From NCBI GenBank assembly GCA_027532905.1, contig JAPZUA010000002.1:496001-560000 (forward strand): 64,000 nucleotides of DNA, given 5' to 3'. This document shows positions 970-49,408 of the stretch, piece after piece. A program made the translations under genes and the position numbers. Each line of letters begins with the position of its first letter. The first letter of the stretch is position 1. The notes beneath the pieces are model-generated. The model searched no databases, was not told the DNA's origin, and saw nothing but the letters and a program-made list of their open reading frames with translations. Origin of the DNA: Magnetospirillum sp. Its GTDB lineage: Bacteria; Pseudomonadota; Alphaproteobacteria; CACIAM-22H2.

Positions 970-1758
970 CTAAGCGGCTTGCGTGAGCCAAGCTGCAGCT
1001 TGTCCGAACAGGCGCGCATAGCCCGGCCAGTCGACAAAGCGTCGCGGCAGCCAATGCGGGCCAATGTCCGAGGTCCAGGCGAGCGTCCGGCCCTTTTTAT
1101 ACGTGCCAGCGACCAGAAGCGGGTGCCCACCGCAATCGACGGGCAAACGCGCGAGGACCGTTCCGGTTGCTTTGGGCGCCACTTCGTTTGCCCCGAGCAG
1201 AACCGGCCACTTGCCTTTGAAGCCAGCGAGGATCGGATGGCGCCGCCCGCTCGCCGTCACGTCGGCCACGAAGCCTTCGGGGATTTCGAGCCGGTCGTCG
1301 GTTTCGCGCATCTTCACGGGCAGAATCTCTTCGATCGGTGTGCGTGCATAACGCGCCGATCCGTTGATGCCCTGGAAGCTCAGATAGCCGCCGACCATCA
1401 TGAACCCGCCACCGCCCGCGACGTAGTCGCGCAGCAGCTTCAGGCGATTGGGCGAGGGCTTGCCGTGCAGCCAAACGTCGGGCGGCAACAGCAGCGTGTT
1501 CGATCCGATGTCGCTCAGTACGACCGCGCTGTACGCGCCGAGAGCCGCAGCGGTCGACGGAAACTCGGCTGCCGCGAGATGGTTCGGCAGATAGTCGACG
1601 TCGAAGCCGTGCTTATCGAGCGCGCGCACGAAGTCTTCGCCCCCGAGATGGTAGGTAGCGCTCGAGAACTGATCCCAGCCTTTCACGTGGTAGGCGCTGG
1701 TCGCCCAAGATTCGCCGGCCAGCAGGATCTTCGGACGCGCTTTGCGTTTTGCTGCCAT
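970..1758 (-). CDS. GATase1-like protein (putative glutamine amidotransferase family)
   Basis: 262 residues. The ATG at 1758 is chosen because upstream in-frame codons run into the preceding binding-protein gene, which ends at 1766. The segment KILLAGESWATSAYHVKGWDQF, the stretch around YLPNH, then SDIGSNTLLL and GGGFMMVGGYLSFQGI match the class I glutamine-amidotransferase-like fold of the GATase1_like family (formerly DUF1355). I do not see a convincing catalytic Cys at the nucleophile elbow, where GGYLSF would sit, so amidotransferase activity is doubtful. The gene is last in a - strand set with a peptide-type binding protein and two permeases, 7 bp downstream of the binding protein, which suggests translational coupling and a role with the imported substrate. 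Substrate unknown. Confidence 0.8.
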   Translation of the reverse strand: MAAKRKARPKILLAGESWATSAYHVKGWDQFSSATYHLGGEDFVRALDKHGFDVDYLPNHLAAAEFPSTAAALGAYSAVVLSDIGSNTLLLPPDVWLHGKPSPNRLKLLRDYVAGGGGFMMVGGYLSFQGINGSARYARTPIEEILPVKMRETDDRLEIPEGFVADVTASGRRHPILAGFKGKWPVLLGANEVAPKATGTVLARLPVDCGGHPLLVAGTYKKGRTLAWTSDIGPHWLPRRFVDWPGYARLFGQAAAWLTQAA

Positions 1759-44361: not shown

Positions 44362-45300
44362 TTAGCCCGCGATACGGGCGCCAAGTGAATTTCCCGACAG
44401 CCAAGCGGCTTCTACGCCGGGGCCCAAAAGCCAGTCGCCGCATACGCCGAGCTTTTGGGTCGCATCGAACATGATGCCAGGGCCGGCTGCAACCGGGTTG
44501 GCGTAGCGCCAGCGATGCGCCGCGCGCGCTATTGGTGACGGCAATACAGCGGCGATGCGCATGGCGAAGGCAGCTGTCAGCGCGTCGGCGATCCAGTCCG
44601 GGTCCGCTTCGACATGCGCGCGCGACCATTCGGCCGTAGCCTGCAGGACCCAAGCGTCGGGACCTGTGCGTCCGGGCTTGGCATTGTTGCGTACCGCCAA
44701 TCCAATCGCGTCGCCTGGGCCGCCTTGGAGCCAATCGATGTCCGCCGCTAGTTTTTCGTCAAAGGCGAGCATCACGGTCCAGCAAGCTATGCTCCGCACC
44801 GCAGCGGCCTGGGCCGCAAACACCGGTGCGATCGGTTTCAACAGCGCGCTTGCCTGTTCGGCTGGGGTCGCGATGACAGCAAGATCGACGTCGATCGCTT
44901 CGCCCTGGTCGAGAACGAAGCGCCAGCCTAGATCTGTCGCGTCGATCCGCAGCACGCGTTGGGCAAACCGTACCGGTTGGGCGGCTGCCATCTGCCGGAT
45001 CGGCGCGCCCATCGTCGGCACGCCGACATAGGAAGCCGGACCCGCCGCCGGCCAGGCCGCAGCCAGACCCGCCGCGATCCACGCATCGACCCGTTGCCGA
45101 AAGGCGGGGTCGCTGGCCGTAAAAGCGGGGGCGCCATGGTCGAAGGAAGCTTCGCCGGCGGAGGTCGAAATGCGCCGCGTCGACATGCGGCCACCTGGAC
45201 CGCGCCCTTTATCGAACAACTGCACCGCGTAGTTCTGCCGCGACAGCCTTTCGGCACAGGCAAGGCCTGCCATGCCGGCCCCGACGATTCCAATTCGCAT
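44362..45300 (-). CDS. FAD-dependent oxidoreductase (renalase/amine-oxidase-like)
   Basis: 312 residues. The N-terminal dinucleotide fold MRIGIVGAGMAGLACAERL is followed by LFDKGRGPGGRMSTRR, the GG doublet typical of renalase-like flavoproteins, then FDHGAPAFTA. The C-terminus LGVCGDWLLGPGVEAAWLSGNSLG is the usual FAD-binding end. Members oxidise small amines or dihydronicotinamide isomers; the bacterial substrate here is unknown. It is the last gene of the - strand photolyase operon, 21 bp after the DCC gene. The 225-bp gap to the ABC-F gene holds no recognised gene. Confidence 0.9.
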   Translation of the reverse strand: MRIGIVGAGMAGLACAERLSRQNYAVQLFDKGRGPGGRMSTRRISTSAGEASFDHGAPAFTASDPAFRQRVDAWIAAGLAAAWPAAGPASYVGVPTMGAPIRQMAAAQPVRFAQRVLRIDATDLGWRFVLDQGEAIDVDLAVIATPAEQASALLKPIAPVFAAQAAAVRSIACWTVMLAFDEKLAADIDWLQGGPGDAIGLAVRNNAKPGRTGPDAWVLQATAEWSRAHVEADPDWIADALTAAFAMRIAAVLPSPIARAAHRWRYANPVAAGPGIMFDATQKLGVCGDWLLGPGVEAAWLSGNSLGARIAG

Positions 45301-45321: not shown

Positions 45322-45699
45322 TTAGGTACGTCTGCCCCCGGCAAGGCGCGAAACATAGGGACGGATCGGAAGAAATAAGCGATAGCCCAGTTCCAGAAGA
45401 GGCAAGACGCCCGGCAACGCGGCGACGCGCGCGGCCCAGCGCCAGCCCGGCAACTGCGTCCAGATCGCAACGAACGCTGCAGCGCCCGAGCGAACTTGGC
45501 CGTCGTCGGCGCGGACATGGAACCGCTGCAGCGCTTGCGCTTGCGTAACGCCCTCGGGCGTGGCGGCATCGGCTGCGGTGACATCGACGAAGCAGACCGC
45601 ACCGGTCTTGTCCTGGCGCCGATAATAGGCGATCTCGGCGCGGCAAAGCGGGCAGGCGCCGTCGTAGTAAGCCGTTGTTCTGGGTCGTTCGGATGTCAT
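45322..45699 (-). CDS. DCC family thiol-disulfide oxidoreductase-like protein (DUF393)
   Basis: 125 residues from ATG 45699. TAYYDGACPLCRAEIAYYRRQD carries the family motif DxxCPxC near residue 14. DVTAADAATPEGVTQAQALQRFHVRADDGQVRSGAAAFVAIWTQLP and the C-terminal GYRLFLPIRPYVSRL complete the DUF393 domain. The function is predicted from the CxxC redox motif only. It sits between a membrane methyltransferase-like gene and an FAD oxidoreductase in the photolyase operon; these partners recur near photolyases in many proteobacteria. Confidence 0.9.
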   Translation of the reverse strand: MTSERPRTTAYYDGACPLCRAEIAYYRRQDKTGAVCFVDVTAADAATPEGVTQAQALQRFHVRADDGQVRSGAAAFVAIWTQLPGWRWAARVAALPGVLPLLELGYRLFLPIRPYVSRLAGGRRT

Positions 45700-45727: not shown

Positions 45728-46591
45728 CTATTTTTCGGCGTCGGCTGGGATTTTCGCGCGTCTGAGGCGCGGCAGCGCGTAAGGGACTTGTTCGCAATAG
45801 CGCGCAAAGCGCTCGCGATAGCGTGCCGCGAACCTTTTCTCTTTGAGGCGCGGCGCGAGCAGGCAATAGAGCGTGAAGCAGAATGCGACGGCAAGTTGGT
45901 CCGGCGTCCACACGGGCACCGTCCAAAGCGTCAGCGCGAATGCAACGTAGATCGGCTGCCGGATCAAACGGAAGAGACCGCGCGTCGGCATGTCCGGAAA
46001 GACCGGCCGGATGCGCGCGAGCAGCGACACCCAGCCCAAAGCACCCGTCTGCACTTCCGCACCGGCATCGAAGCTTGCTTTGAGCAACAGCAGCCAGCTA
46101 GCGGCATAGGCGGCCGAGACGGCCCAAAACGCGATCCCCTCGGCGCGCCACCACACGATGCCGGACGGCGTCCACAGCGCGAACAGCGCCAGCAGCTGCG
46201 CCGACGCGACGATGGCGTAGGTCGTGGTTGCGAGCGTAGCACCGTACGGGCCAGGGACTGCGCGCGTCAGCGTACGTTCGCCGCGCCGCGTGAGCAGCAG
46301 CGAATGGGCGAGCGGAAATTGCAGGATCAAGAAGGCATTGGCGACCGCCGCCCACGGCCATGCAAGTGTGCCGAAGCTCTCGCTCATGCCGAAAAACATC
46401 GCTGCGACCATCGCAAGCACGGCGGCTGCGAACAAGCTGTGGCACACAATCCCGAGCAGAATGGCAAATGCGATGCGCGCCCGCCCGGGCGGTGGCTTCA
46501 GCGCAGCCGCAACGAGGGCAACAAGGCCTGCCACACGAGGATCTGCGAGGAACGGATGTTTGTGCGGGGGCTGCATGAGGCGATCAAACAT
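45728..46591 (-). CDS. Membrane methyltransferase-like protein (NnrU/MddA/ICMT-related)
   Basis: 287 residues from ATG 46591, overlapping the upstream photolyase stop by 8 bp. About six to seven membrane segments are visible (AFAILLGIVCHSLFAAAVLAMVAAMFFG; FLILQFPLAHSLLL; ATTTYAIVASAQLLALFALW; WAVSAAYAASWLLLL). The C-terminal part GLFRLIRQPIYVAFALTLWTVPVWT and LEEK-like KEKRFAARYRERFARYCEQVPY resembles the SAM-dependent membrane methyltransferase group that includes methanethiol S-methyltransferase and ICMT. The substrate is unknown. The N-terminal 60 residues are less conserved. Confidence 0.82.
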   Translation of the reverse strand: MFDRLMQPPHKHPFLADPRVAGLVALVAAALKPPPGRARIAFAILLGIVCHSLFAAAVLAMVAAMFFGMSESFGTLAWPWAAVANAFLILQFPLAHSLLLTRRGERTLTRAVPGPYGATLATTTYAIVASAQLLALFALWTPSGIVWWRAEGIAFWAVSAAYAASWLLLLKASFDAGAEVQTGALGWVSLLARIRPVFPDMPTRGLFRLIRQPIYVAFALTLWTVPVWTPDQLAVAFCFTLYCLLAPRLKEKRFAARYRERFARYCEQVPYALPRLRRAKIPADAEK

Positions 46592-48119
46592 CAAAGGCAA
46601 ATTGGGGGTTGGGCGCGTCGGCTTTGGCGGCCTTCGGGTTGCGTCTCGGCTTGGCGAGACCTGCTTTGCGGCTTCCGTGTTTATCGACGATACGGCGTGC
46701 CGTCTCTTTGTGGTCGGCACGCCGCCGCAGCGCGTAGAGGGCGTCGCGGGCGGCACGCGCCGCTGACGCATTGTCGACGATCGGCGGCGGATAGCGCAAC
46801 ATCTCCGCCTGTTCCCAGCGCCAAGGCTCGTGTATGAACATGTCGGGCACTTGGGCAAGCTCGGGCACATGGGCCCGCACGAAAGTACCGGTCGGGTCCT
46901 GGTCGAAACCCTGCTTGACGGGGTTGTAGATGCGCATCGCGTTGATGCCCGTGGTGCCGGATTGCATCTGCACCTGGGGCCAATGGATGCCGGGTTCGTA
47001 GTCGACGAATTTGCGCGCGAGGTGCAGCCCGGTATCGCGCCACGGCAGCCACAGATGATAGCTCGCAAACGACATGAGCATTGCGCGCATTCTGAAATTG
47101 ATCCAGCCATGCCGATCGAGCGCGCGCATGCAGGCATCGACGAATGGAAAACCTGTGTTGCCGCTGCGCCAGGCGTCCAGCCGCTCGGGATCGGCGATGT
47201 CGGGGCGGATGCAGTCATAAGCACGATGCAGATTTTCAAATTCGAGGCGCGGTTCGTCTTCGAGCTTTTGCATGAAATGGCAGTGCCAATGCTGGCGTGC
47301 GGCAAACGACCGCATGGACGCACGCCAACGCTGCGTGTCGGGTCGGTCGGCAGTATCGATAGCTGCCACGCGCTTCCACGTCGCTTGCGCCACTTCGCGC
47401 ATCGAGATGGTGCCCCAGGCCAAGTGCGGCGACAGGCGTGAGCTTGCAGCGAACGCGGTCACGGGACTCGACATCTCGAAGCGATAGTCGCGGCCTCGCT
47501 GCTCGAGAAAGCTTGCGAGTGTTTCGAGCGCTGCGGCGCGTCCACCCGCTTGGCGATGCGGGCATGGGTCGGTCGCCAGGCCGAGTTCCGCGCTGGTCGG
47601 CACAGATGTGGGACCCGTCGTCGCGATCGGCTGTAGGGCAAGGGGAGGGGGTGCGGTGGGCAACGCCATGTCGCGGTCCCAAGCTTGTGCCCAGCCGTTG
47701 CGCGATTTGATACGGCGGATCACCCCGAATTGCCGTGATTCGTGCCAGGGCAAGCCCGCTCGCTTGCACCAGGCCCCAACGGCACGGTCGCGCGCATAGG
47801 TCCAGCCATTGCCGGTTTCCTCGTGGCTGAACAAGGCTGCAATGCCGAAGCGCCTGTACAGTTTCTCGAAGATTGTGACGGCGTCGCCAACCATTACCCA
47901 CAGCGGTTGACCGAGGGCGGCAAGATCATTCTGAAGCTCGGTTAGGCACTCGGCTGCGAAGTCCCATTGGCGCGCGGCTGCATCGGGCTGCTGCCACAGC
48001 GCGGGCTCGACGATGTAAAGCGGCAGCACCGGTCCGGCCTCGGCGGCCAGCGTCAGCGGGCGGTGGTCGGCGAGGCGCAGATCGCGTTTGAACCAGACGA
48101 TGTTGAGCGGCGCCGTCAT
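46584..48119 (-). CDS. Cryptochrome/DNA photolyase family protein
   Basis: 511 residues from ATG 48119, overlapping the upstream stop by 4 bp (ATGA). The N-terminal antenna domain is IVWFKRDLRLADHRPLTLAAEAGPVLPLYI (about 1-165). The FAD-binding domain follows from about 230: SRLSPHLAWGTIS, CHFMQKLEDEPRLE, GFPFVDACMRALDRHGWINFRMRAMLMSFASYHLW, and IHWPQVQMQSGTTGINAMRIYNP. The enzyme uses FADH- and blue/UV-A light to repair UV-induced pyrimidine dimers, or acts as a photoreceptor. The Lys/Arg-rich tail (about 485-505) may aid DNA binding. It is second in the operon, after a permuted photolyase-like gene. Confidence 0.92.
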   Translation of the reverse strand: MTAPLNIVWFKRDLRLADHRPLTLAAEAGPVLPLYIVEPALWQQPDAAARQWDFAAECLTELQNDLAALGQPLWVMVGDAVTIFEKLYRRFGIAALFSHEETGNGWTYARDRAVGAWCKRAGLPWHESRQFGVIRRIKSRNGWAQAWDRDMALPTAPPPLALQPIATTGPTSVPTSAELGLATDPCPHRQAGGRAAALETLASFLEQRGRDYRFEMSSPVTAFAASSRLSPHLAWGTISMREVAQATWKRVAAIDTADRPDTQRWRASMRSFAARQHWHCHFMQKLEDEPRLEFENLHRAYDCIRPDIADPERLDAWRSGNTGFPFVDACMRALDRHGWINFRMRAMLMSFASYHLWLPWRDTGLHLARKFVDYEPGIHWPQVQMQSGTTGINAMRIYNPVKQGFDQDPTGTFVRAHVPELAQVPDMFIHEPWRWEQAEMLRYPPPIVDNASAARAARDALYALRRRADHKETARRIVDKHGSRKAGLAKPRRNPKAAKADAPNPQFAFDV

Positions 48120-49300
48120 GTGCAACCGAGTTCCCGCAAATTAGTGGGGATCTGTTTTCTGAAGGCGAAGAAGCCGCGTGTGGCATGCGGCCAGAACGCG
48201 TCGTCCCAGCGGCGGCGTACATAGCTGAGCCAAATGCCCGTTTTGGAGAGATCGGATTTGATTTTCGTCAAGGCATCGGCGATCGGTCCCACCGGTGCCG
48301 CCGCGGTCACGACGTGTCGCACGCCGGCTTCGCGCGCGGCCGCAACGATGTTCGCCATATCGAGCTTCGCCGAAATTTGCACAGCGCAGCCGAACTTCTT
48401 CTGCACGCGCATCGCCGCATCGGCAGTTGCAGCATGCACAAATGTGCGCGCGTGGTTGCCCCACAGCAGATCGGCGTCGGCTGCGACGATTGCTGCAGCA
48501 AAGCACTTTTGCCCATCGAACAGCGATTCCGGATGGAGATCTTCCGCTGTGACTAGCAGTAAGGCGGGAGATGAGGGCGCGTCGGCCGGCAACGGTGCCA
48601 GCGGTCGGATCGGCGGAAGCGGGGCTTCGGTCAGCGCTTGCGCCTCCGTTGCCAGACCTTGCGGCGTGAAGCGGCCCTCGGTACAGCGCGCAATGTTGTC
48701 GCGCGTCGCAAGATAAGTCTTCCCCGCCGTCTGCAAGCCCGCCACCCAGCGCCAGGAAAGCGTGTTGCTGGCCGGATCGGCATCGATCAGATGGCGTAGG
48801 AAGAAGTCGGCGCCGAGCGCCCACGGCAGGCGCAGCGTAAAAATCCAAATCGAGGCGAACCACATGCGCGCATGATTGTGCAGATAGCCGGTCTCGACAA
48901 GTTCGCGCGCCCAATCGTCGAAACCTTTGATGCCTGTCTCGCCCTTTTCCGCAGACGCGACTTCGCCAGTGCGCTTAGATGCGTCGCGCGCGTCCAGAAA
49001 GCGCGACCAAACTGTCGGGTGCAACTCGAGCCATCCCTTCCAGTAGGTGCGCCACAGCACCTCCTGGACGAACTTCTCGGCGTCGTCGAATCTATGCCGA
49101 GCCAGAACCGCACCCACAATCTCGGCTTCGGTAACCAAGCGGTGCCGGAGATAAGGGGAAAGCCGCGATACCGCACTTCCGCGCCCAGGTCCTGGATCGA
49201 TATTTCGCTCGGCTGCGTAATGCGGCCCGGCACCCGGCACGAAAACTTCGAGACGGTCCAGGGCTGCGGCACGTGAAGGCGGAAAGGCAGGCGATGTCAT
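48116..49300 (-). CDS. Photolyase-like FAD-binding protein with apparently permuted domains
   Basis: 394 residues from ATG 49300. The photolyase FAD-binding region comes first: SRLSPYLRHRLVTEAEIV (from residue 46), WRTYWKGWLELHPTVW (83-98), GYLHNHARMWFASIWIF (138-154) and LIDADPASNTLSWRWVAGLQ (171-190). No antenna domain precedes it. Residues about 245-385 instead form an alpha/beta-like domain (ALLLVTAEDLHPESL, CFAAAIVAADADLLW, GVRHVVTAAAPVGPIADAL, GIWLSYVRRRWDDAFWPHA) that resembles the photolyase N-terminal domain by strand order and by its end. I infer a circular permutation. First gene of the photolyase operon; light-dependent repair or sensing is likely, but not shown. Confidence 0.82.
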   Translation of the reverse strand: MTSPAFPPSRAAALDRLEVFVPGAGPHYAAERNIDPGPGRGSAVSRLSPYLRHRLVTEAEIVGAVLARHRFDDAEKFVQEVLWRTYWKGWLELHPTVWSRFLDARDASKRTGEVASAEKGETGIKGFDDWARELVETGYLHNHARMWFASIWIFTLRLPWALGADFFLRHLIDADPASNTLSWRWVAGLQTAGKTYLATRDNIARCTEGRFTPQGLATEAQALTEAPLPPIRPLAPLPADAPSSPALLLVTAEDLHPESLFDGQKCFAAAIVAADADLLWGNHARTFVHAATADAAMRVQKKFGCAVQISAKLDMANIVAAAREAGVRHVVTAAAPVGPIADALTKIKSDLSKTGIWLSYVRRRWDDAFWPHATRGFFAFRKQIPTNLRELGCT

Positions 49301-49408
49301 GGCACAAATAAGCTGTTGCAAAAGCAGTGAATTTCAATCGCGACCGCCTGACGCTCCGGCAACCCCCTTGTTCTAGCTCAACTATTTCTTAAGCGCCTGA
49401 CCGCTCGT

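Follow-up and report, generated by a model that had tools for sequence, protein, structure and literature searches.

Photolyases with the FAD domain placed before the alpha/beta domain are already known from bacteria. In the NewPHL class, as Emmerich et al. 2020 are cited in PMC9426592 and PMC13274461, an N-terminal FAD domain is followed by a C-terminal Z-domain, and cyclobutane pyrimidine dimers (CPD) are repaired in single-stranded DNA; the characterised CPD-repairing members come from Dinoroseobacter shibae and Methylobacterium mesophilicum, according to the account of that work in PMC9426592. CPD repair in single-stranded DNA and an inverted domain topology are ascribed to NewPHLs/SPLs in PMC13274461. 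The D. shibae NewPHL has "a mere Trp dyad" (PMC8948257), and an Asn facing FAD is conserved in NewPHL (PMC12083526). Further reversed-order photolyases were described as Phr4/Phr5, Phr6 and Phr7 (Haney et al. 2022, PMC9426592), of which Phr4 and Phr6 have four cysteines for an Fe-S cluster (PMC9426592). A literature search combining "circular permutation" with photolyase returned nothing relevant.

The window, by which we mean the whole stretch of 64,000 nucleotides of Magnetospirillum sp. DNA that was analysed, contains on its minus strand an open reading frame of 394 aa whose ends agree exactly with those given by a first-pass annotation of the sequence. It starts with ATG at 49300, with an alternative TTG start at 49321, and is organised as follows:

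48116..49300, minus strand: predicted NewPHL-type reversed-order photolyase gene, 394 aa (open reading frame, Pfam, alignment, model and tree)
48629..49300, minus strand: helical FAD-binding/catalytic domain, residues 1-224 (Pfam and structural alignment; the C-terminal part of the FAD_binding_7 profile is absent)
48569..48628, minus strand: linker, residues 225-244, without predicted helix or strand
48119..48568, minus strand: C-terminal alpha/beta domain, residues ~245-394, in the position of the NewPHL "Z-domain" (model and profile comparison)

Our analysis of the sequence and of a predicted structure, together with analogy to the characterised enzymes, indicates that the product of this gene is very probably a photolyase of the NewPHL class, which would likely carry out light-driven CPD repair in single-stranded DNA. 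Since NewPHLs have been published since 2020 and are widespread in bacteria, we regard the protein as a further member of a known photolyase kind. An earlier published description of the architecture, which the first-pass annotation had named as a ground for refutation, exists for NewPHL (Emmerich 2020) and for Phr4/5, Phr6 and Phr7 (PMC9426592).

The translation contains the motifs VSRLSPYL (residues 44-51), HNHARMWFAS (141-150), DADPASN (173-179), WRWVAG (183-188), WDDAFWP (365-371) and GFFAFRK (376-382), which had been placed correctly to within about one residue. Pfam detects FAD_binding_7 at residues 77-196 (E 7.7e-20, profile positions 1-126 of 203) and no DNA_photolyase domain N-terminal of it, in agreement with the proposal that the FAD domain comes first. 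This domain is also supported by PDB sequence matches, and the photolyase models of NCBIfam score far under their cut-offs for the 394-aa protein. A full-length AlphaFold2 model generated with 77 sequences has high confidence in both domains (pLDDT 95.2, pTM 0.92), and residues 1-224 align with the Thermus photolyase 2j07 with Z 16.1 and rmsd 2.9 A over 213 residues.

In the model, the C-terminal domain is predicted to form five strands (246-251, 267-273, 306-310, 329-333, 357-361) that alternate with helices and are followed by end helices; modelled alone, it reached pLDDT 93.5. Ranked by Z, the first 14 PDB matches of the isolated domain (Z 9.7-10.3) come without exception from photolyases or cryptochromes, whose N-terminal domain is the part that aligns, in most cases over 141-149 residues. 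Rossmann-like universal stress proteins, which have the same general fold, reach Z ~9.4 over ~110 residues, so that the two groups are tied by Z alone (difference <1), whereas the aligned length in these model-based comparisons favours the photolyases. Foldseek gave no match <1e-3 for the isolated domain, and no solved NewPHL structure was found in the PDB by sequence search. The assignment of this region as a photolyase-like alpha/beta domain, already suspected in the first-pass annotation, is thus supported by the predicted structure and by the profile comparisons described below.

In direct hhalign comparisons, the C-terminal domain gave weak, in-register alignments with photolyase N-terminal domains, at E 0.0015 and 0.003 and with a probability of 10-17%. 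A freestanding Phr5-like domain aligned along its length with the C-terminal domain of the window protein at E 5.9e-4 and with the photolyase N-terminal domains at E 7.5e-9 and 4.1e-9; pairings of unlike domains gave E 0.16 or worse. At the level of these profiles, the freestanding Phr5-like proteins support homology between the C-terminal domain and the photolyase alpha/beta domain. Such proteins are encoded in three alphaproteobacterial genomes, where the end of a FAD-only gene shortly overlaps a downstream gene of the same strand that encodes a freestanding alpha/beta domain of ~130-145 aa, a layout like that of phr4/phr5 in Synechococcus (PMC9426592):

L008:1013-2139: split FAD-only and Phr5-like pair
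L009:971-2124 (approx.): split FAD-only and Phr5-like pair
L010:969-2190: split FAD-only and Phr5-like pair

In L009, the split FAD protein has a Cys-rich C-terminal tail, GRFCRVCPHYGRCPF (~1408-1500, minus strand), that resembles the Fe-S cysteines described for Phr4. Matches of the C-terminal domains to BLH_phosphatase (8/77 sequences, best 7e-5) and to DNA_photolyase (1/77, 0.01) in Pfam were set aside as weak and inconsistent.

A circular permutation had been proposed for this protein, with the stretch from WDDAFWP to GFFAFRK resembling the start half of a photolyase. In the profile alignments, the WPHATRGFFAFRK tail pairs instead with the "yrVFtpFwk" segment that closes the alpha/beta domain of photolyases, which indicates that the internal order is kept and that only the domains are swapped. 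The exchange of domain order contained in that proposal therefore stands, but the internal order of each domain is unchanged, and the FAD domain is without the C-terminal part of its profile. Given the photolyase-like fold of the C-terminal domain and its sequence homology with Phr5-like proteins, the observation of a leading FAD domain is upheld, as an inversion of domain order, and this inversion in the protein encoded at 48116..49300 is real.

The family search suggested by the first-pass annotation revealed that this kind of protein is widespread: when one genome per species was scanned, 583 related stretches emerged, and the best 80 were kept as loci, 76 of them with full-length relatives. 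All 76, from other genomes and drawn from these best 80 of 583 stretches, have the two-domain layout in the same order, and two genomes of the same genus carry an orthologue at 78-80% identity; the arrangement is therefore the product of neither chance nor assembly error. The family comprises hundreds of candidate loci, extending to Actinomycetota, a Cyanobacteriota MAG and Eremiobacterota, and those kept belong mainly to Alphaproteobacteria, including Roseobacteraceae, with a smaller share from Gammaproteobacteria, Actinomycetota and other groups. The C-terminal domain was present in 21 of the 289 sampled genomes of the class, always within a frame of ~380-640 codons, and never found among these genomes as a short freestanding frame. 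Several Actinomycetota members with ~50% identity come from Microbacteriaceae (Frigoribacterium, Cryobacterium, Curtobacterium; L055, L057, L060, L068, L078, L082, L084, L088, L094, L100, L106); the members in this phylum were possibly acquired by transfer from proteobacteria.

The short FAD domain and the lack of a Pfam match in the C-terminal domain of the window protein itself would fit a truncated or chimeric pseudogene, in which a photolyase fragment and a Rossmann-like domain of unrelated origin were fused accidentally. The probability of this explanation is close to nil, because the layout is conserved across distant genomes, in the orthologues of the genus as in the full-length homologues, because D254, G338, D366, G376 and F378 of the C-terminal domain are invariant across the 77 sequences, and because the predicted structure of that domain is photolyase-like.

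To describe the active site of the presumed NewPHL-type enzyme, residues were mapped on the E. coli photolyase 1dnp, with conservation counted over 77 sequences (the window protein and its 76 relatives):

48752..48754, minus strand: W183, equivalent to E. coli W382, first Trp of the electron-transfer chain, 77/77
48821..48823, minus strand: W160, equivalent to E. coli W359, second Trp of the chain, 77/77
48764..48766, minus strand: N179, equivalent to E. coli N378, Asn facing FAD N5, 77/77
49052..49063, minus strand: E80 and W83, equivalent to E. coli E274 and W277, CPD lesion site, 77/77

M146 (E. coli M345) and W185 (E. coli W384) are likewise invariant (77/77). The third Trp of the chain, E. 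coli W306, lies opposite a gap and has no counterpart, leaving a Trp dyad in the window protein. Four conserved Fe-S cysteines were not found: only two columns have Cys in >20/77 sequences, and neither is conserved.

The tree built from FAD domains places the window protein together with 18 relatives on one side of a branch with support 100/98; the FAD proteins of the split pairs are their sister group (joint branch 100/99), and the class I photolyases fall outside. The exact join of the NewPHL-like and split-pair groups to class I is uncertain, since long branches meet at this point of the tree. The clade of the window protein includes proteins from Roseobacteraceae, the family of D. shibae, and may be that of the characterised NewPHLs. 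These data bear on the possibility that the protein is of the Phr4/Phr5-Phr6 type, which contains an Fe-S cluster and has been proposed to carry out (6-4) repair, rather than of the NewPHL/Phr7 type. The domain order is the same in both types and the split FAD and alpha/beta pairs are the closest group in the tree; however, the four expected cysteines have no conserved column in the 77 sequences and the NewPHL-like group is well separated from the split pairs, and we consider this assignment highly improbable.

Analysis of the region downstream showed an apparent operon on the same strand:

46584..48119, minus strand: atypical photolyase/cryptochrome paralogue, downstream partner (PF00875 and PF03441, normal domain order)
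45728..46591, minus strand: candidate methanethiol S-methyltransferase (MddA)-like protein, next in the apparent operon (weak, below family cut-off)
45322..45699, minus strand: DCC1-like thiol-disulfide oxidoreductase (PF04134, E 2.7e-26)
44362..45300, minus strand: putative NAD/FAD-dependent, renalase-like oxidoreductase (name assigned from the sequence)

The start of the partner gene overlaps the stop of the photolyase gene as ATGA (48119-48116). A partner homologue is found nearby in 18/76 relatives and directly abuts or overlaps downstream in 8/76, consistent with the co-operonic arrangement indicated in the first-pass annotation. The same annotation had called this neighbour a normal photolyase, which proved incorrect: in 13-17 of the 17 sequences of the partner group, R stands in place of class I E274, H in place of N378, mostly V in place of W382 and M in place of W384. 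By these residues, the partner is a conserved paralogue family and not an ordinary photolyase. Its family motifs are HWHCHF..QKLE, DYEPGIH and QMQSGTTGIN. The source genome has three genes with the FAD domain found in the window protein. Homologues of the DCC1-like gene occur near the photolyase gene in 12/76 loci and those of the renalase-like gene in 8/76, a recurrence of predicted functions that suggests a photo-oxidative stress cluster.

The apparent co-transcription with this atypical paralogue, and the loss of most radical pairs of the DsNewPHL Trp dyad within nanoseconds (PMC8948257), could point to a cryptochrome-like light sensor that regulates gene expression, perhaps together with the overlapping paralogue, instead of a repair enzyme. 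This role has only a small chance of being correct, since all tested CPD-site residues are retained in 77/77 sequences, unlike in the partner gene, and since CPD repair is the activity attributed to the two characterised NewPHLs in the paper that cites them. In addition to the assignment as a NewPHL-type repair enzyme, it could be proposed that the window protein and the paralogue form a functional pair and that the C-terminal domain derived from a freestanding Phr5-like domain by fusion of a split pair. We find this combined proposal unlikely; if true, the Phr5-like fusion would represent a step-by-step route to the reversed domain order.

From its family, we infer that the window protein binds FAD, repairs CPDs, prefers single strands and has no antenna. 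The N-terminal domain would bind FADH- and take up a flipped-out dimer, the light-excited flavin would donate an electron to the dimer, and the electron would return after the dimer has split; photoreduction of FAD would proceed through the two-tryptophan chain W183 and W160. The C-terminal domain would correspond to the photolyase "antenna" domain set after the catalytic domain, where its probable role is to close the flavin site; binding of an antenna cofactor may have been lost. A sealing of the FAD site by this domain was reportedly suggested by Emmerich et al. By analogy with the characterised enzymes of D. shibae and M. mesophilicum, the preferred substrate would be single-stranded DNA.

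These results confirm that reversed-order photolyases, an architecture already published, are widespread. Our study adds structural and bridged-sequence evidence on the C-terminal domain, as well as the atypical overlapping partner. That the best match of this domain is the alpha/beta domain of ordinary photolyases, with Phr5-like proteins as intermediates, bears on the evolution of domain order. Class I CPD photolyases (E. coli PhrB, T. thermophilus) have in common with the window protein the FAD fold and the E274/W277/M345/N378/W384 site, but differ in having the alpha/beta domain (PF00875) before the FAD domain, a full FAD domain and a Trp triad. In Phr4/Phr5 and Phr6 the FAD domain is encoded first, as in the window gene, and such split pairs are the sister of its FAD domain; Phr4/6 differ by their four Fe-S cysteines and Phr4/5 by consisting of two genes. 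Phr7 of Prochlorococcus is similar in its N-terminal FAD domain, its short C-terminal photolyase-type Z-domain and its lack of Fe-S cysteines (PMC9426592), and differs in its host lineage, the cyanobacteria. The short photolyase-like group SPL (Xu et al. 2021; S. elongatus SephrC) is named alongside NewPHL in PMC13274461. The NewPHLs share with the window protein the N-terminal FAD domain, the C-terminal Z-domain, matched by type and place, the Trp dyad, the FAD-facing Asn and the alphaproteobacterial distribution, and comparison by reported features revealed no difference between them.
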